A DNA stretch of 64,000 nucleotides from Algoriphagus sp. CAU 1675 (GTDB lineage: Bacteria; Bacteroidota; Bacteroidia; Cytophagales; Cyclobacteriaceae), in NCBI RefSeq assembly GCF_029222925.1, contig NZ_JARHUI010000004.1, positions 248,001-312,000 on the forward strand. The letters run 5' to 3'. Below, piece after piece: positions 7,452-15,230 of this stretch; position 1 is the first letter of the stretch; each line of letters opens with the position of its first letter. The notes under the pieces are model-generated. The model was not told the DNA's origin. It made no database searches and saw only the letters and a program-made list of their open reading frames with translations. The position numbers and the translations under genes were made by a program.

Positions 7452-8525
7452 TTGAATTCATTATTCGAACCGCTTCACCGGGATGAAAACAATTCCCCGC
7501 TCATTATAGCAGGCCCCTGTAGTGTGGAAAGTCCGGAGCAGCTTTTTTCCACCATAAAGGAATTAAACGCTCAGGGAATTTCTATCATTAGAGGAGGTGT
7601 ATGGAAACCTAGAACAAGACCTGGAAGTTTTGAAGGACTGGGAACGGTAGCCTTACCCTGGATTGAAGAGGTAAAAAAAGAATTTCCCATACAATTTGGA
7701 GTAGAAGTAGCATCCTCCAAACATGTGGAAGCTGCACTGAAGCATCAAATTGATTTTGTATGGATTGGCGCAAGATCCACCGTCAATCCATTTACGGTTC
7801 AAGAAATAGCGGATTCATTAAAAGGGAGTAAAATTCCAGTCTTGATCAAAAACCCGGTAAATCCTGACCTCAGCCTTTGGCTGGGAGCAGTTGAAAGAAT
7901 CGCAAATGCCGGGATCCGGCAAATCGCAGCCATTCACAGAGGATTCAGCAATTTTCGGGACAGCATCCATAGAAACTCCCCCATGTGGCAACTTCCAATT
8001 GAATTCAAGAGCCATTTCCCGGAAATCCCAATGATCAATGATCCTAGCCATATTTCAGGCAAGAGATCATTGGTCCCACTAATTGCCCAAAAGGCATTGG
8101 ACTTGAATTTTGACGGACTCATGATTGAATCACACATCAGCCCGGATCAGGCTTGGTCAGATGCGACCCAACAAGTCACTCCCTTCGATTTGGGAAATAT
8201 TCTCAAAAATCTAAAAACCCGAAAAATCAGATTCGAAGCTCCAGAAATGCTCGATCAATTGGAAGAAATCCGGCACCAAATCGACCAAGCAGACCATGAA
8301 CTCCTCGAAGCCATTCATCGAAGAATGAATTTGGTTGAAAAAATAGGAGCTTACAAAAAGCTCAACAATGTAGCTGTGCTTCAAATGGAGCGATGGCAAG
8401 ATATTCTCCAAAGTCGTAGCGGGTGGGCTAACTCTCTTGAAATAAGCCCCGAGTTAGTCAGGGAAATTATGAGCCTGATTCACCAAGAATCGATAAAGAA
8501 GCAGACTGAAATCATGGATTCCTGA
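7452..8525 (+). CDS. Bifunctional DAHP synthase / chorismate mutase, copy 1
   Basis: Joins phosphoenolpyruvate and erythrose-4-phosphate to make DAHP, and the fused domain converts chorismate to prephenate. The DAHP synthase domain covers about residues 12-250 (IAGPCSVESPEQ, GGVWKPRTRPGSFEG, WIGARSTVNPF, LIKNPVNPD, AAIHRGFS, NDPSHISGKR). A type II (AroQ) chorismate mutase follows at about 262-350 (IRHQIDQADHELLEAIHRRM, EKIGAYKK). The start is a TTG, with no in-frame ATG nearby. It is a diverged paralogue of the gene 0.4 kb downstream and has no attenuator in front of it. No strong terminator follows, so read-through into the leader region is possible. Confidence 0.92.
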   Translation: MNSLFEPLHRDENNSPLIIAGPCSVESPEQLFSTIKELNAQGISIIRGGVWKPRTRPGSFEGLGTVALPWIEEVKKEFPIQFGVEVASSKHVEAALKHQIDFVWIGARSTVNPFTVQEIADSLKGSKIPVLIKNPVNPDLSLWLGAVERIANAGIRQIAAIHRGFSNFRDSIHRNSPMWQLPIEFKSHFPEIPMINDPSHISGKRSLVPLIAQKALDLNFDGLMIESHISPDQAWSDATQQVTPFDLGNILKNLKTRKIRFEAPEMLDQLEEIRHQIDQADHELLEAIHRRMNLVEKIGAYKKLNNVAVLQMERWQDILQSRSGWANSLEISPELVREIMSLIHQESIKKQTEIMDS

Positions 8526-8723: not shown

Positions 8724-8754
8724 TTTGAATTTAAAATTACACCCCTTACATTTG
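8724..8754 (+). promoter_or_regulatory. Promoter of the aromatic amino acid operon
   Basis: TTTG at 8724-8727, exactly 19 nt, then TACATTTG at 8747-8754. This is a full match to the Bacteroidota sigma-A consensus TTTG-N19-TAnnTTTG. The predicted start of transcription (about 4-8 nt downstream) falls on or next to the leader peptide ATG at 8759. Confidence 0.7.
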
Positions 8755-8758
8755 AAAC

Positions 8759-8854
8759 ATGTTAATCACAGCAGCAATCTATTTTACCTTCTTTTACTTT
8801 TACTTTCGAAGCAAAAATCGAATCGGAGCTGTGTATTGTCTAGCCAAAAACTAA
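8759..8854 (+). CDS. Phe/Tyr-rich leader peptide (attenuator), 31 aa
   Basis: A short reading frame starts at ATG and ends at TAA. Residues 8-16 read YFTFFYFYF: eight of nine codons specify Phe or Tyr, with a ninth aromatic codon (Tyr26) later. It is followed 17 nt after the stop by a rho-independent terminator, and then by the DAHP synthase/chorismate mutase gene that heads the aromatic operon. By analogy with enteric pheL and other amino acid operon leaders, its translation should sense charged tRNA-Phe/tRNA-Tyr. The peptide itself probably has no function. No other Met codon occurs in the frame, so this ATG must be the start if it is translated. Confidence 0.82.
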   Translation: MLITAAIYFTFFYFYFRSKNRIGAVYCLAKN

Positions 8855-8903
8855 AAGAAATAAATAAATACAAAAGCCCGGTTCGAAAGAGTCGGGCTTT
8901 TTT
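8819..8903 (+). promoter_or_regulatory. Transcription attenuator: antiterminator/terminator switch
   Basis: The stretch 8819-8830 (CGAATCGGAGCT), inside the leader ORF just after the aromatic codons, can pair with 8875-8885 (AGCCCGGTTCG) over 11 base pairs with one bulged A and one G-U. That pairing uses up the 5' arm of the terminator at 8872-8903, so the two structures exclude each other. A ribosome stalled in codons 8-16 would leave 8819-8830 free and favour read-through. A ribosome moving past would disrupt it and favour termination. A second complementarity, CTTTCGAA at 8803-8810 with TTCGAAAG at 8882-8889, overlaps the last Phe codon. Folding energies were not computed. Confidence 0.72.
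8872..8903 (+). terminator. Rho-independent terminator of the attenuator
   Basis: AAAAGCCCG (8872-8880) pairs with CGGGCTTTT across a 12-nt loop, followed by a T-run. It sits between leader peptide and first structural gene, where it can only act as a conditional terminator for the operon. Confidence 0.88.
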
Positions 8904-8923
8904 AATTAAACACGCTCAGCCGT

Positions 8924-10021
8924 ATGAAACCTCACAAACAAATTAAGGATTGGGGATTAGGACTTACCACCCCGCTAATTATTGCCGGACCATGCTCTGC
9001 AGAAACTCCGGAGCAGATCGAGCAAATTGTAAAGGAAATGAAGGACGAGAACATGATTCCTCAAATGTTCCGTGCCGGTATCTGGAAACCCAGAACTAGA
9101 CCGGGTAGCTTTGAAGGTGTCGGAGAAGAAGGATTAAAGTGGATGGAAATTGTTCGGCATAATCTGAACATTCCCATTACTGTGGAGGTCGGAAATGCTG
9201 CCCATGCTGAACTTGCTTTGAAGCATAAAGTAGACGTGCTTTGGATCGGTGCCCGTACTACTGTGAATCCATTTGCGGTTCAGGAAATCGCTGAAGTTCT
9301 TCGGGGTGTTGACATTCCAGTAATGATCAAAAACCCAATGAACCCGGATCTTGATCTTTGGATAGGCGCATTGGAAAGAATGTACGCAGTAGGAATTGAC
9401 AAACTAGCAGCCATTCATAGAGGTTTTTCTGATGCTTATGACAAACGTTTCAGAAACAAGCCAAACTGGTCTATGCCGATCCACCTGAAGCGTGTTTGGA
9501 CTGGAATGGAAGTAATCAATGACCCTTCCCACATCGTAGGTCGCCGGGATGGTTTGTTGGAAGTAGCCCAGCGCGCCATGAACTTTGGTTTGGATGGTCT
9601 CATGATAGAAACACACCACGATCCAGACAAAGCCTGGTCTGATGCCAAGCAACAAGTGACTCCAAAAGCCTTGAAGGAAATGATCAATGCGATCGACTTC
9701 AAAGAGCCATTGGAAAACATGAAACCAGATGAGCGTCTTCAAGACCTAAGACGTGCAGTGGATCACCTAGATGATCAGCTTTTGGACATTCTTCAGGAAA
9801 GATTTGCCGTGATTGACCAGATCGGTTCTCACAAAAGAGAGCATCACCTAACCGTATTTCAGTCTGACCGCTGGAAAGATGTAATGGAAAGCCGAACCAA
9901 AAAAGGCGTGGAAAAACACTTGAGCGAGAAATTCATGAAAGAATTGCTTTACTCCATCCATGAGGAATCCGTAAAGCGTCAAGAAAAACAACTTCGCGAA
10001 GCCGAAGCAGTAAAAAAGTAA
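8924..10021 (+). CDS. Bifunctional DAHP synthase / chorismate mutase, copy 2 (operon head)
   Basis: Catalyses the first step of the shikimate pathway (DAHP from PEP and erythrose-4-phosphate) and, through its C-terminal AroQ domain, chorismate to prephenate. DAHP synthase motifs: IAGPCSAETPEQ, AGIWKPRTRPGSFEG, WIGARTTVNPF, MIKNPMNPD, AAIHRGFSDAYDK, NDPSHIVGRRDG. The mutase covers about residues 270-355 (LRRAVDHLDDQLLDILQERF, DQIGSHKREH). At 365 residues it is close in length to copy 1 and clearly homologous. This copy lies behind the Phe/Tyr attenuator and leads aroB-aroA-pheA-aminotransferase-tyrA, so it is probably the biosynthetically regulated form. Confidence 0.94.
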   Translation: MKPHKQIKDWGLGLTTPLIIAGPCSAETPEQIEQIVKEMKDENMIPQMFRAGIWKPRTRPGSFEGVGEEGLKWMEIVRHNLNIPITVEVGNAAHAELALKHKVDVLWIGARTTVNPFAVQEIAEVLRGVDIPVMIKNPMNPDLDLWIGALERMYAVGIDKLAAIHRGFSDAYDKRFRNKPNWSMPIHLKRVWTGMEVINDPSHIVGRRDGLLEVAQRAMNFGLDGLMIETHHDPDKAWSDAKQQVTPKALKEMINAIDFKEPLENMKPDERLQDLRRAVDHLDDQLLDILQERFAVIDQIGSHKREHHLTVFQSDRWKDVMESRTKKGVEKHLSEKFMKELLYSIHEESVKRQEKQLREAEAVKK

Positions 10022-10114: not shown

Positions 10115-11155
10115 TTGGTGAATCCAATACTCTTTTCAAAGTCCATAGCCCAGGATCTCGGACAAGTGCTAAAGGAATATTCCTATTCCAGAATTTTTGT
10201 ACTTACTGACGAAAACACCAAGCTACATTGCCTTCCAAAAATCAGCCATTCCATACCGGCAGACTCGGTTCATTTCACTATTCCGGCAGGAGAAATCCAC
10301 AAAAACCTGGACACCTGCACCCAAATCTGGTCTAAGATGACTGCCGCCCAACTTGACCGCAAAGCCTTACTTATCAATTTAGGAGGAGGTGTTTTGGGAG
10401 ATATGGGAGGATTTTGTGCCAGTATTTACAAAAGAGGAATTCGATTTGTCAATATTCCCACTACCCTGCTTTCTCAGGTAGACGCAAGTGTTGGAGGAAA
10501 ACTGGGAGTGGATTTTCAAGGATTAAAAAACCATTTGGGGGTCTTTAATGAACCCGAAACAGTACTCATTGCCCCGGAATTTCTAGAGACCCTACCCCTT
10601 CAGGAATTGCGTTCAGGCTTTGCCGAAATCATGAAGCATGGGCTGATCCGGGACAAAAGCTATTTCGAAAATCTGGATCTAAAAAATTGGGAAAATTCCA
10701 ATTGGACTGAATTGATCCGGCATTCAGTAGAAATCAAAAAAAGCGTAGTCCTTGAGGACCCGAAAGAATCCGGTCTTAGAAAGATCCTCAATTTCGGACA
10801 TACCGTAGGTCATGCCTTTGAAACCTATTACCTGGACAGCCCGAAGCATTTACTTCATGGCGAAGCCATAGCTGCAGGAATGATATGCGAAGCTTGGCTT
10901 TCCTCAAAAAAATTGAGCTTACCTGAAACAGAACTCAAACAAATCGAACAGGCCTTTTTAAGCGTTTTCGGAAAAATTCAAATCGAAAACCGTGAAATAG
11001 AAGCCATATTGGACTTTTGCCTTCAGGACAAGAAAAACGAAGGAAGCACGCTGATGTTTTCCTTGCTGAATTCAATTGGGGACTGTACCTACAACATCCC
11101 CGTCACCCGGGAAGAAATCCGGGAATCAATCGCTTACTATCAAAGCCTCTCCTAA
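10115..11155 (+). CDS. aroB: 3-dehydroquinate synthase
   Basis: Cyclises DAHP to 3-dehydroquinate, the second shikimate step, using NAD and a divalent metal. The family signature is clear: NLGGGVLGDMGGF (about residues 89-101), IPTTLLSQVDASVGGKLGVD, GFAEIMKHGLI and the metal ligands in LNFGHTVGHAFE and LLHGEAIAAGM. At 346 residues it is of ordinary size. The start is uncertain: a TTG at 10115 or the GTG directly after it at 10118, with no ATG in range. It is the second gene of the attenuated operon, 93 nt after the DAHP synthase gene and 24 nt before aroA. Confidence 0.93.
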   Translation: MVNPILFSKSIAQDLGQVLKEYSYSRIFVLTDENTKLHCLPKISHSIPADSVHFTIPAGEIHKNLDTCTQIWSKMTAAQLDRKALLINLGGGVLGDMGGFCASIYKRGIRFVNIPTTLLSQVDASVGGKLGVDFQGLKNHLGVFNEPETVLIAPEFLETLPLQELRSGFAEIMKHGLIRDKSYFENLDLKNWENSNWTELIRHSVEIKKSVVLEDPKESGLRKILNFGHTVGHAFETYYLDSPKHLLHGEAIAAGMICEAWLSSKKLSLPETELKQIEQAFLSVFGKIQIENREIEAILDFCLQDKKNEGSTLMFSLLNSIGDCTYNIPVTREEIRESIAYYQSLS

Positions 11156-11179: not shown

Positions 11180-12406
11180 ATGGGTATTTTAAGCCTGGCA
11201 CAAAAATCAGAGTTCGCCAATACTTCCATCCCTCTTCCCTCTTCTAAAAGCGAATCCAATCGGGTATTGGTAATTGACGCCTTGACTGAAGGCAAAAACA
11301 AAATCAGCAATCTTGCTGAAGCAAGAGACACCCAAACCATGATCAGTCTCCTGAAGAAAAACCCTCCGGTTTATGATGTTCTCGATGCAGGGACTACCAT
11401 GCGCTTTTTGACTGCTTATGCAACTGTCACCAACCAAAACAAGGTAATGACAGGAACCCCAAGAATGTGTGAAAGACCTATTGGGATTCTGGTGGATGCA
11501 CTAAGAAGCATAGGTGGAGAAATTCATTACCTCAATGTGGAGGGCTATCCTCCTTTGGCCATCCATGGGCTTTCGGAGCAAAAAACGGATAAAGTAAAAA
11601 TCCGGGGTGATGTATCCAGCCAATATATTTCAGCCATGCTGATGATTGCTCCTGTTTTGCCTTTAGGATTGGAAATCGAACTGGAAGGAAAAGTGGGCAG
11701 CAGAACCTATATAGAAATGACTCTTGAGCTCATGGCTCAATTTGGGATTCAGTATAGCTGGGATGGAAACAAAATAAAAGTAGCTCATCAAGCCTATAAG
11801 CCCACTGAATTTGCTGTGGAAAGTGACTGGTCAGGGGCAAGTTATTGGTTTAGCTTACTCGCCTGCTCCGATTCAGGAGCATTGTTTTTAGAAGGTTTGA
11901 AGGAAAATAGTCTTCAGGGAGATTCCAAAATTGTTGAGATCATGGACCATTTAGGCGTAAAAAGCACCTTCAAGGACGGTGGGATCCTTTTACAGAAACA
12001 GCCTGTGAAAGGACTTAAGAGTTGGGATTTTACACATTGTCCGGACCTTGCTCAAACAGTAGCTGTAACCTGCGCAATTTTGGGACAGGACAGCATTTTC
12101 ACAGGTTTGGAAAGTCTGCGAATTAAGGAAACAGATCGGATATATGCCTTACAGCAGGAATTGGCAAAATTCAATGCCGAGCTCAGGGAAATTGAACCGG
12201 AAGTCTTCAGAATCATTCCTTCTGTCACGATGCCAAACGAGGTCCAAATCCATACTTATGAAGACCACCGAATGGCCATGGCATTTATGCCATTGGTAAC
12301 CAAGACAAAGGTATTGATCGAAGATCCCGAAGTTGTAAACAAGTCTTACCCCAGCTTCTGGAAACATTGCGAATTACTCCACATTTCCATGGAAACCAAA
12401 TCATGA
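11180..12406 (+). CDS. aroA: 3-phosphoshikimate 1-carboxyvinyltransferase (EPSP synthase)
   Basis: Transfers the enolpyruvyl group of PEP to shikimate-3-phosphate, the sixth shikimate step. Recognisable elements: LPSSKSESNR (the usual form is LPGSKS), DAGTTMRFLTA at residues 69-79, CERPIGILVDALR, GDVSSQYISAM, RIKETDR and EDHRMAMAF. The segment DAGTTMRF differs from the enterobacterial NAGTAMRP: Phe76 stands where E. coli has Pro101. Its TGA stop overlaps the pheA start as ATGA, which implies translational coupling. At 408 residues it is slightly shorter than the E. coli enzyme. Confidence 0.93.
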   Translation: MGILSLAQKSEFANTSIPLPSSKSESNRVLVIDALTEGKNKISNLAEARDTQTMISLLKKNPPVYDVLDAGTTMRFLTAYATVTNQNKVMTGTPRMCERPIGILVDALRSIGGEIHYLNVEGYPPLAIHGLSEQKTDKVKIRGDVSSQYISAMLMIAPVLPLGLEIELEGKVGSRTYIEMTLELMAQFGIQYSWDGNKIKVAHQAYKPTEFAVESDWSGASYWFSLLACSDSGALFLEGLKENSLQGDSKIVEIMDHLGVKSTFKDGGILLQKQPVKGLKSWDFTHCPDLAQTVAVTCAILGQDSIFTGLESLRIKETDRIYALQQELAKFNAELREIEPEVFRIIPSVTMPNEVQIHTYEDHRMAMAFMPLVTKTKVLIEDPEVVNKSYPSFWKHCELLHISMETKS

Positions 12407-13230
12407 GCCAACGAAAGATAGCCATACAAGGAGTTCCGGGATCCTATCACCATCAGGTGGCACTGAGAGTTTTTGGAAACGAAGTAGAGATTCTGCCATT
12501 CAACACTTTTGAGACCGTTGCCAAATCCCTGGCATTTGACACAGCGGATTTTGGGGTAATGGCCATAGAAAACTCCATAGCTGGGGCAATTTTACCCAAT
12601 TATGATCTCATAGATCGCTATGGGCTTCACATCAGGGAGGAATTTTACCTGCCCATTGCCCATCAGTTTATGGCTTTGCCCGGGCAACAAATAGAAGACA
12701 TTAATGAAGTCCGCTCCCACCCTATGGCATTGCTACAGTGCAAGGCATTTCTGGCCCAGCATCCCCAGATCCTGCAAATCGATGATTTGGACACGGCTTC
12801 GGTGGCAAAAAGGATTGCTGAGGAAAAGCTCAAAGGTGTAGCCGCAATTGCCAGTGAAATCGCAGCGGAAATCTATGGGTTGGAGATATTGGCCAAAAAT
12901 ATTCAGACCGTGAAGGATAACTTCACACGGTTTATCATTTTGCAGAAAGAAAAAGTAGAGGCCACAGAAACTCCAAACAAAGCCTCCTTCAAAGTTACTA
13001 TCCAAAATCAGGCTGGTGGACTTGCCAAACTACTAACTATGATCGCTGAGAAAGGCCTAAACCTCAGCAAAATCCAATCTATCCCCGTTATCGAAAAACC
13101 TTGGGAATATTCCTTTTTCATAGATGCGGAATTTTCGGATTATGCTCAGTTTTTAGAAGCCATGGACCTGATTCAAAAGGATTTTGGAGACGTAAAAATC
13201 TTTGGAGAATATAAGAGCAGAAAGGCATGA
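12403..13230 (+). CDS. pheA: Prephenate dehydratase
   Basis: Converts prephenate to phenylpyruvate, the committed step to phenylalanine. It is monofunctional (275 residues), since chorismate mutase is fused to DAHP synthase here. The catalytic domain shows GVPGSYHHQVAL, GVMAIENSIAGAI, HPMALLQCKAFL, GVAAIASEIAAEIYG and the NFTRFIIL motif. A C-terminal ACT domain starts near residue 195 (GGLAKLLTMIAEKGLNLSKI). The ESRP motif that binds Phe in the best-known enzymes reads QSIP here. The start at 12403 overlaps the aroA stop by 4 nt and is preferred over an ATG 36 nt upstream inside aroA. Confidence 0.93.
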   Translation: MSQRKIAIQGVPGSYHHQVALRVFGNEVEILPFNTFETVAKSLAFDTADFGVMAIENSIAGAILPNYDLIDRYGLHIREEFYLPIAHQFMALPGQQIEDINEVRSHPMALLQCKAFLAQHPQILQIDDLDTASVAKRIAEEKLKGVAAIASEIAAEIYGLEILAKNIQTVKDNFTRFIILQKEKVEATETPNKASFKVTIQNQAGGLAKLLTMIAEKGLNLSKIQSIPVIEKPWEYSFFIDAEFSDYAQFLEAMDLIQKDFGDVKIFGEYKSRKA

Positions 13231-14375
13231 AAGGATTTGCGCATAGAATAGACAGCGTCCAGGAATATTATTTCTCCGCAAAACTCAGAGAAGTCAATCA
13301 ATTGATTGCAGATGGCAAGCCTGTGATCAACCTTGGAATCGGAAGTCCAGACCTAGCTCCAGACCAGAGGGTCATCGATGCGATGAAAACAACCGTTGAT
13401 CAAGCCCAATCCCACGGCTATCAGAATTACCAGGGAATTCCTGAATTGAGAATCAAAATCGCGGAGTTTTACAAAAAAGAATATGATGTAGAGCTGAATC
13501 CTTTCAAGGAAATTTTGCCCCTGATGGGATCAAAAGAAGGTATCATGCACATCAGTATGACTTTCTTAAACCCCGGAGACCAGGTTTTGATCCCTGATCC
13601 TGGCTACCCTACCTATTCCTCAGTAACCAAACTGGTGGAAGCCGAACCCATCTATTACAGGCTTGACCCAAACCGTAAAGGAAGACCTGATTTTGAGACA
13701 CTTGAAAAATCAGATCTGAGTAAGGTCAAATTAATGTGGGTCAATTACCCGCACATGCCAACCGGTGCGGCAGGAAGTAAGGAGCTTTTTTCTGAACTGG
13801 TTTCCTTCGCCAAAAAGCATGATTTGGTTCTTATCAATGACAACCCCTACAGCCATATTCTAAACTCTGAACCGCTAAGCATTCTCAGTATTCCTGGGGC
13901 GGACGAAGTAGCCCTTGAACTCAATTCCCTCAGCAAAACATTTAATATGCCCGGATGGAGAGTAGGCATGCTTTGTGGTAGAGCTGACTGGATCGATGCC
14001 GTATTGAAAGTCAAATCCAACATGGATTCAGGTATGTTTTTGGGAATTCAAAAAGGGGCTATTGCAGCTCTGAGTCTTGGAAAACCCTGGTTTCAGGAAT
14101 TGGACGATGTTTACAATAACCGCAGAAAACTTGTATGGAAGTTTGCTGAATTGGCAGGCTTGGGTTACTCCACCGAACAAGCAGGACTATTTGTTTGGTG
14201 CAAAGTTCCTGAAGGAAAAAATGCCGAGGAATTGGTGGATTACTTACTCTACGAAAAAAACATCTTTATCACTCCGGGAAAAATTTTCGGATCTGCCGGG
14301 GAAGGCCACGTGAGGATTTCCCTTTGCATGCCTGAATTTAAAATCCTGGAAGCAATTAATCGAATCAAACCTTAA
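13227..14375 (+). CDS. PLP-dependent aminotransferase, class I/II (aromatic or prephenate)
   Basis: A fold-type I aminotransferase of 382 residues with the PLP lysine in NSLSKTFNMPGWR, NYPHMPTGA (usual form NYPxNPTG), DNPYSHI and the substrate arginine region GHVRISLCMP near the C-terminus. It lies between pheA and tyrA and overlaps pheA by 4 nt (ATGA). The likely job is transamination of phenylpyruvate and 4-hydroxyphenylpyruvate to Phe and Tyr. The placement would also suit a prephenate aminotransferase. The sequence alone does not decide between these, because class I folds of this type also handle aspartate or branched substrates. Confidence 0.85.
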   Translation: MKGFAHRIDSVQEYYFSAKLREVNQLIADGKPVINLGIGSPDLAPDQRVIDAMKTTVDQAQSHGYQNYQGIPELRIKIAEFYKKEYDVELNPFKEILPLMGSKEGIMHISMTFLNPGDQVLIPDPGYPTYSSVTKLVEAEPIYYRLDPNRKGRPDFETLEKSDLSKVKLMWVNYPHMPTGAAGSKELFSELVSFAKKHDLVLINDNPYSHILNSEPLSILSIPGADEVALELNSLSKTFNMPGWRVGMLCGRADWIDAVLKVKSNMDSGMFLGIQKGAIAALSLGKPWFQELDDVYNNRRKLVWKFAELAGLGYSTEQAGLFVWCKVPEGKNAEELVDYLLYEKNIFITPGKIFGSAGEGHVRISLCMPEFKILEAINRIKP

Positions 14376-14381
14376 CCTATT

Positions 14382-15230
14382 ATGCAAAAAATACACATTA
14401 TCGGACTTGGACTTCTTGGAGGTTCCTTTGGATTAGGAGCCAGAAGAAAATTCCCCGAAGTCATTGTGACCGGAACGGACTCCAACCCCAAAAACCTGAA
14501 AGACGCCTTGACATTAGGCATTATCACAGAAGCAAAAGAAGCCCCCGATGCAGATACAGATTTGGTCATTTTAGCCACTCCCGCAGATTCATTGGGAGAA
14601 TTACTCCTGAAAACTTTGGATCAAATCGGTGAAGAAACGCTGATTTTTGATTTGGGCTCTACCAAGGCTAAACTTTGCCAACTGGTGGAAAGCCATCCGA
14701 AAAGAAAACAGTACCTTGCCGCACACCCTATTGCAGGTACAGAATATTCGGGACCAAAAGCTGCATTTGCAGACCTATTGGACAGAAAAGTGATGATCCT
14801 TTGTGAACTGGAAAAGACAGATCTTCACCTTAAGGAAAAGGCATACGAACTATTCGAAGCATTGAATTTGAAGCTAAGATTCATGGATCCCGAAGAACAT
14901 GACCGCCATCTTGCTTTCGTTTCCCATCTTTCTCACATCTCCTCTTTTATGCTTGGAGAAACAGTCCTTCAAAAAATGGAAGACGACAAGAATATTTTCG
15001 ACATGGCTGGTTCCGGTTTTGCATCCACGGTTCGACTAGCCAAATCCAGCCCTGCCATGTGGGCTCCAATTCTCATCGAAAACAAGGAGAATATATTGAG
15101 TGCTTTGGACGGATATATTGCCAATCTACAGGCTTTCAGGGACAAAATTTCCGCCGGAGACAGCAATGGAATTTATGATGAAATGGCAAGCATCAATAAG
15201 ATCGGAGAAATCCTGGATCTAGGGAAATAA
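14382..15230 (+). CDS. tyrA: Prephenate dehydrogenase
   Basis: Oxidatively decarboxylates prephenate to 4-hydroxyphenylpyruvate, the tyrosine branch. The N-terminal NAD(P)-binding motif is GLGLLGGSFGLG (residues 8-19). The catalytic region has AAHPIAGTEYSGP with its conserved His, and VSHLSHISSF. At 282 residues it has no ACT domain or fused mutase, consistent with the mutase being on the DAHP synthase. It is the last gene of the operon, 6 nt after the aminotransferase, and is followed by a clear terminator. Arogenate as substrate cannot be excluded by eye. Confidence 0.92.
   Translation: MQKIHIIGLGLLGGSFGLGARRKFPEVIVTGTDSNPKNLKDALTLGIITEAKEAPDADTDLVILATPADSLGELLLKTLDQIGEETLIFDLGSTKAKLCQLVESHPKRKQYLAAHPIAGTEYSGPKAAFADLLDRKVMILCELEKTDLHLKEKAYELFEALNLKLRFMDPEEHDRHLAFVSHLSHISSFMLGETVLQKMEDDKNIFDMAGSGFASTVRLAKSSPAMWAPILIENKENILSALDGYIANLQAFRDKISAGDSNGIYDEMASINKIGEILDLGK

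Follow-up and report, generated by a model that had tools for sequence, protein, structure and literature searches.

The window analysed here, a stretch of 64,000 nt (64 kb) from Algoriphagus sp. CAU 1675, carries a short open reading frame dense in Phe and Tyr codons, followed by a terminator and a set of aromatic amino acid biosynthesis genes. The question raised by this locus is whether frame and terminator together act as a transcription attenuator in which a ribosome senses the supply of Phe and of Tyr, and the answer reached below is that they very probably do. Backing for it came from sequence and comparison, namely from the ORF, its codon run, the helices, part of the covariation, the geometry and the promoter spacing. 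The structural genes behind the terminator are:

8924–10021, plus strand: DAHP synthase/chorismate mutase (DAHPS/CM), first structural gene (PF00793, PF01817)
10115–11155, plus strand: aroB, 3-dehydroquinate synthase (TIGR01357 above cut-off)
11180–12406, plus strand: aroA, EPSP synthase (TIGR01356 above cut-off)
12367–13230, plus strand: pheA-type prephenate dehydratase (PF00800 above cut-off)
13227–14375, plus strand: class I/II aminotransferase (PF00155)
14382–15230, plus strand: tyrA-type prephenate dehydrogenase (NF006307 above cut-off)

This gene set covers steps between the start of the shikimate pathway and the end products Phe and Tyr, and its order and spacing suggest that DAHPS/CM–aroB–aroA–pheA–aminotransferase–tyrA form one operon. 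The head gene follows the terminator as first annotated, with its ORF starting at 8924. The leader itself sits between two DAHPS/CM paralogs, ORF 7452–8525 and ORF 8924–10021, which are 46% identical; no aromatic leader was noticed before the tandem copy at 7452–8525 directly upstream. Between the paralogs, the following leader features were delineated:

8724–8727, plus strand: predicted −33 element TTTG, found 19 nt upstream of the −7 box in 99 of the 120 leaders with 4-nt box–ATG spacing
8747–8754, plus strand: predicted −7 element TACATTTG of the Bacteroidota sigma-A, 4 nt before the leader ATG in 120/130
8759–8854, plus strand: leader ORF of 31 codons, whose first base (8759, the A of the ATG) is the predicted transcription start
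8763–8772, plus strand: element 1, protector 5′ arm, pairing with 8828–8838 in the whole-leader fold
8780–8806, plus strand: regulatory codons 8–16 (YFTFFYFYF), F/Y positions kept in 106 collinear leaders
8819–8838, plus strand: element 2, comprising the antiterminator arm (8819–8830) and the partner of element 1 (8828–8838)
8872–8885, plus strand: element 3, terminator 5′ arm, of which 8875–8885 pairs with element 2
8889–8903, plus strand: element 4, terminator 3′ arm and U tract

The 31-codon ORF was recovered at 8759–8854 as initially annotated; its peptide is MLITAAIYFTFFYFYFRSKNRIGAVYCLAKN, and Phe or Tyr is encoded at codons 8, 9 and 11–16, that is, at eight of the nine codons 8–16. A stretch with at least 8/9 F/Y codons occurs once in the window, both strands taken together, and was absent from 40 first-order Markov sequences (64 kb, one strand each). 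Six consecutive F/Y triplets are not rare genome-wide, with 23 matches vs. 28 for a reversed control pattern; among the 20 of these 23 loci that were inspected, the run lay inside an ATG-started ORF of <45 codons here and at L228/L229 only, the latter being a TAT repeat in a short ATG-started ORF. Compared with this rarity, conservation in relatives provides the stronger argument.

An ortholog set of 146 loci with a gene start was defined by L005–L152 minus L074, which has no gene start, and L084, which is a homolog with 49% identity; some genomes are represented twice in it. A leader was scored as a short upstream ORF with at least five F/Y in nine codons. Such an ORF was found upstream in 145/146 loci, the single exception being L023, where the contig ends 195 nt upstream of the gene. 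Sequence at this contig end (L023:1–200) resembles an insertion in L059 (CATGCGAGATTCCATGTGACC), the two loci belonging to two Algoriphagus species; in L059 the inserted sequence lies between the terminator and the DAHPS/CM structural gene. No leader was counted in the 21 loci of more distant homologs (L153–L173; 46–51% identity), a candidate at L162 having been removed after a spurious ORF carried it past the threshold.

Removal of identical copies left 130 distinct leaders, the window's own included, and the F/Y run begins at codon 8 in 119 of them. Hardly any aromatic position varies among the 106 collinear leaders, so that the conserved aromatic run in close relatives, set beforehand as a test of the proposal, was found. 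In the same leaders, Arg17 is kept in 104/106 by three synonymous codons, codons 18–20 drift, and the tail RIGAxYC is conserved. The leaders of more distant genera have the F/Y run alone in common, with differing lengths and ends, and one leader, L110, carries a frame shift. Codon choice within the run was also compared: over 69 sequences, the third positions of the leader F/Y codons had a mean entropy of 0.33 bit, vs. 0.85 bit (range 0.26–1.0) for 11 conserved F/Y codons of DAHPS/CM in the same sequences. Since the leader positions vary less, something beyond the amino acid appears to be kept.

The conserved peptide could also be taken for a small aromatic-rich membrane protein, with a terminator that just ends upstream transcription and no attenuation at all. 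To the eye the first half of the peptide is hydrophobic, and the RIGAxYC tail conserved in collinear leaders would suit a protein. That tail, however, coincides with element 2, the more distant genera retain nothing but the run, and the F/Y-to-arm spacing and partner-specific helices described below point to an RNA function; a membrane protein is thus considered extremely improbable, and attenuation remains the preferred reading.

Both helices of the initial annotation were found in the leader RNA. The rho-independent terminator (8872–8903) has 13 pairs including an A-U extension, a GAAA loop and six T, and the antiterminator (8819–8830 with 8875–8885) has 11 pairs with one G-U and a bulged A8827 and overlaps the terminator 5′ arm. 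Two features are added here, the predicted leaderless start discussed below and a putative protector helix 1:2, formed in the window fold between element 1 (codons 2–6) and the 3′ portion of element 2. The calculated energies of the helices alone were −17.2 (3:4), −13.8 (2:3) and −6.8 (1:2) kcal/mol, by which 3:4 is more stable than 2:3 in isolation and 1:2 is weak. In the other leaders, the antiterminator arm was sought solely downstream of the last F/Y codon, against the terminator 5′ arm. The leader–terminator duplex was computed for 130/130 leaders, and in 110/130 none of 100 shuffles was as good; the median energies were −18.5 kcal/mol for the antiterminator duplex and −19.9 kcal/mol for the terminator. 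Judged by sequence comparison and by the window fold, antiterminator and intrinsic terminator are mutually exclusive.

Partner specificity was evaluated by swapping, in which the pairing of an arm with its native partner is compared with its pairing to the corresponding arms from other species; the test covered 43/105 collinear leaders, picked for difference, and 17/25 others, picked by hand. For all 60 leaders, 0/2000 permutations did as well for each of 1:2, 2:3 and 3:4, and the same was found within the 17 other leaders; within the 43 collinear ones, the values were 1/2000 for 1:2, 0/2000 for 3:4 and 265/2000 for 2:3. Column covariation was assayed in two alignments, A1 (43 sequences) and A2 (23 sequences), with shuffle tests that are inflated by kinship among the sequences. 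Terminator cells changed on both sides numbered 5 vs. 1.0 in A1 and 13 vs. 3.7 in A2 (0/500 shuffles each), so the terminator covaries by this count. For the antiterminator, 0/11 pairs were changed on both sides in A1, where it is nearly invariant, and the fixed-column covariation count in A2 was not above shuffles. The alignments and swaps thus describe an antiterminator that hardly changes among close relatives and is specific for its partner among distant ones, and the covariation initially expected in both stems was borne out for the terminator and not for the antiterminator, which is too invariant in close relatives.

The protector covaries on some measures. In A1, its cells changed on both sides were 18 vs. 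10.0 (0/500 shuffles) and its covariation score was reached by 1/500 shuffles, while the both-sided pairs (2 vs. 2.3) and pair types (10 vs. 10.2) were not above shuffles. Taken singly, it ranked in the best 5% of shuffles in 98/130 leaders and outside in 32/130. The sequence of element 1 differs strongly between lineages, yet its pairing persists.

The spacing of these elements was then related to a ribosome of ordinary footprint. With one flanking base counted as part of it, the antiterminator arm lies 12–16 nt downstream of the first nucleotide of the last F/Y codon in 121/130 leaders, whereas the arm-to-stop distance varies from −14 to +24 (83 in L110), i.e., the stop codon drifts. L110 is one of nine exceptions for the run-to-arm distance, and the one exception for the stop–terminator distance, which is 14 nt or more in 129/130. 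An early caveat on timing, that the arm lies inside the ORF about 20 nt before its stop, therefore poses no obstacle, since the run-to-arm distance is the conserved quantity. The geometry would fit an ordinary footprint, with element 2 free at the stall and element 3 free at the stop; by geometry only, a ribosome stalled on the run would free the antiterminator arm. Given the distance between stop and terminator, a ribosome past the run would leave the terminator free, either covering element 2 or sitting between the two arms.

From these features we infer the start site, translation, stalling and Phe/Tyr-dependent read-through, in the following order of events. The first transcribed base would be the A of the leader AUG, and a ribosome would load on the leaderless end and trail RNA polymerase. 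When charged tRNA-Phe or tRNA-Tyr is scarce, the ribosome would stall on codons 8–16 with its 3′ edge just short of element 2, so that 2:3 could pair before element 4 is made and the polymerase would continue into the operon. When both charged tRNAs are plentiful, the ribosome would cover element 2 up to the stop, 2:3 would be blocked, and 3:4 would end transcription at ~8903. With no ribosome in the way, element 1 could pair with element 2.

Folding with a ribosome placed at successive codons, its footprint set to reach 12 nt beyond the first A-site base, was consistent with this scheme in the window: at equilibrium, the complete leader gave the antiterminator for A-site codons 8–17 and the terminator for codons 2–7 and 18–32. 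An equilibrium model in which the antiterminator codons are the F/Y codons fits the window and fails in relatives, and was rejected. For the complete leaders of 60 sequences, the antiterminator was obtained at 60/516 run positions (51/507 without the window) and at 26/356 positions before the run, and the terminator fold was obtained in 59/60 when no ribosome was placed. Because these folds favour the terminator at most run codons, either the switch would be kinetic or the energies are off.

Partial transcripts, in which the RNA ends before element 4 as at the time of choice, were folded as well. Helix 2:3 formed at 516/516 run positions, at 119/120 of the next two codons, and at 40/742 positions more than two codons past the run, a right-hand limit that is partly built in, as the arm was sought only past the last F/Y codon. 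It also formed with the ribosome before the run (351/356) and without ribosome (53/60).

These folds bear on a second alternative, a terminator under protein or small-molecule control in the manner of a riboswitch, the ORF being incidental. Terminator and antiterminator exist without translation, and the equilibrium folds ignore ribosome position in most relatives, as such control would allow. On the other hand, leaders that have little else in common retain the aromatic codons, at a fixed distance to the arm. An Rfam search of the window returned no family at its gathering score, and the best matches below threshold include Phe_leader (RF01859), to which the leader does not belong by score, with 23.7 bits vs. 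a gathering score of 55 and an E-value of 0.058 over the whole model. This alternative is judged very unlikely. The conserved parts, the geometry and the partner-specific helices instead support the Phe/Tyr attenuation proposed initially.

The start of the leader transcript was predicted from the −33/−7 promoter elements, for which the consensus was taken from the available parts of PMC6847099 and PMC7366714. The spacing between a TAnnTTT(G/A) box and the leader ATG is exactly 4 nt in 120/130 leaders, 5 nt in five, 6 nt in one and 8 nt in one, and 3/130 have no strict −7 box. Position −1 is C in 115/120 leaders with the 4-nt spacing. Recent descent alone does not account for the fixed spacing, since the spacer from −21 to −14 carries 0.07–0.32 bit in these 120 leaders. 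In the published maps, as far as the accessible sections of PMC9723704 and PMC6847099 describe them, the −7 box occupies −12 to −5 from the start site, which together with the 4-nt spacing would make the A of the AUG the first transcript base. The leader transcript is therefore predicted to be leaderless, starting at 8759, on the basis of the promoter spacing (4 nt in 120/130).

A working attenuator whose transcript starts further upstream, and is hence not leaderless, was weighed against this prediction. The promoter is a consensus match, three of the 130 leaders have no strict −7 box and seven have 5–8 nt spacing, all of which would leave room for such a start; the exact 4-nt spacing in 120/130, the unconserved spacer, the C at −1 in 115/120 and the start-site position relative to the −7 box in the mapped promoters (the parts seen of PMC9723704 and PMC6847099) argue against it, and an upstream start is regarded as unlikely. 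Few 5′ ends in this phylum are leaderless or very short, as given in the available text on Flavobacterium psychrophilum (5.5%; PMC9723704) and on Bacteroides thetaiotaomicron (~3.7% under 10 nt; PMC7366714). Leaderless starts as a genome-wide habit were considered and rejected, as the strict promoter–ATG pattern is near chance: TTTG-N18-20-TAnnTTTG-N3-6-ATG gave 5 genome matches, one of them the Phe/Tyr leader, vs. 3 with the reversed control.

Taking the predicted leaderless start further, selection in this clade may keep the leader leaderless, with element 1 within its first six codons, so that the switch reads Phe/Tyr-tRNA charging and also ribosome start on a bare 5′ AUG, a suggestion that is tentative. 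Equally speculative is the companion suggestion that the box–AUG distance, the start of the run and the run-to-arm distance form one ruler; such a ruler would tie together where the polymerase starts, where the ribosome starts and where it stalls.

Leaders of other operons were surveyed for comparison. Among the 30 best trpE loci from a search of 60 family genomes, the window's own included, a leader ORF with at least two Trp in five codons was found in 29/30. The −7 box lay 4–19 nt before the ATG in 12 of these leaders, 34 nt in one and nowhere within 45 nt in 16, the choice of ATG being sometimes ambiguous, and by these counts the Trp leaders of the same family have no fixed box–ATG spacing like that of the Phe/Tyr leader. 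At L304, the −7 box is 4 nt before the trpE leader ATG, so that some Trp leaders of the family may likewise be leaderless. The window's genome has a WWW leader (MKTTANKYWWWHSTSFQGKAQKAVA) before trpE (L207, G000:C10:459500–463500, reverse strand), with a terminator-like hairpin after the ORF and a −7 box 10 nt before the ATG. At L206 (G000:C14:44500–49600), the ORF MYQVVFLLSFIILIGS stands, by eye, before a 559-codon ORF, which we take to be ilvD, upstream of ilvB, and GTGAGGCACT/AAGTGCCTCAC and a terminator-like hairpin come after the short ORF; the element is likely an Ile/Leu/Val attenuator, its 5′ untranslated region being ~40 nt long as judged by eye. A possible His leader (MNNSQLHSIFFEAYGPIHIAHHFHHSF) was seen upstream of hisG at L183 (G000:C11 near 503590), with no clear terminator after it.

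Across the class, 0/40 DAHPS/CM loci reached 7 F/Y/W of nine codons, L267 having 6, and in other families of the order 2/20 DAHPS/CM loci (L190 and L197) reached this count. A Trp codon stands among the Phe and Tyr codons of these two Cytophagales leaders, which suggests that they may sense all three aromatic amino acids. In some loci the end of a tyrA-type-like gene abuts DAHPS/CM by eye, so an operon leader is not expected there. Prephenate dehydratase was searched in 80 genomes of the class, and the 21 with a match, oriented by tblastn, include the window's operon, where the gene is internal. Judged by codon content alone, a short ORF with at least 6 F/Y/W in nine codons precedes the gene in 12/21 loci, one of them (L285) from G065, a genome belonging to the window's family, and 5/9 were found in two more (L277, L282). 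Inspection by eye of the 35 bases upstream of these 12 ORFs gave no −7 box at a distance of 4 nt from the ATG; L277 has one at this distance.

The E. coli pheL attenuator is an example of the enteric pheA leader. Like enteric pheL (RF01859), the leader of the window has an ORF with a run of Phe codons, an antiterminator competing with a terminator, and Phe biosynthesis downstream. It differs in its interleaved Tyr codons, in heading a shikimate–Phe–Tyr operon, and in being predicted to be leaderless with a Bacteroidota promoter. Within the phylum, the available part of PMC9723704 reports that leader-peptide attenuation is strongly indicated ahead of amino-acid operons of F. psychrophilum, and that conserved structured 5′ elements precede pheA and hisG. 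Those elements, compared here by description rather than by element sequence, share the phylum, the idea, the position before amino-acid operons and probably the mechanism, the difference being that DAHPS/CM heads the operon here. ORFs reminiscent of leader peptides are mentioned for B. thetaiotaomicron in the accessible text of PMC7366714. Attenuator ORFs whose transcripts start at the AUG, as predicted here, are described for Sinorhizobium meliloti trpL (PMC7298713, in part) and for mycobacterial polycysteine ORFs (by a title in the reference list of PMC13236596), which belong to other phyla and other amino acids. Among titles and abstract openings in a partial literature without supplements, no publication describing a Phe/Tyr attenuator from Cyclobacteriaceae was found.

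Since attenuation in Bacteroidota is in print and leaderless attenuator ORFs are known, the leader of the window adds to a known kind. The initial annotation considered an equally complete case in this group of Bacteroidota worth recording; in this respect the locus is weaker than hoped, attenuation before amino-acid operons of the phylum having been reported already (PMC9723704). The mechanism is a textbook one, here in a little-studied phylum, and the locus offers a Phe/Tyr attenuator of Bacteroidota dissected in some detail by sequence comparison, in a group without Shine–Dalgarno sequences according to the part available of PMC6847099. If it works as inferred, ribosomes would trail RNA polymerase closely in Bacteroidota. 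Its fixed, predicted leaderless start would provide a testable case of attenuation dependent on leaderless initiation, in a phylum where leaderless or very short 5′ ends are scarce.
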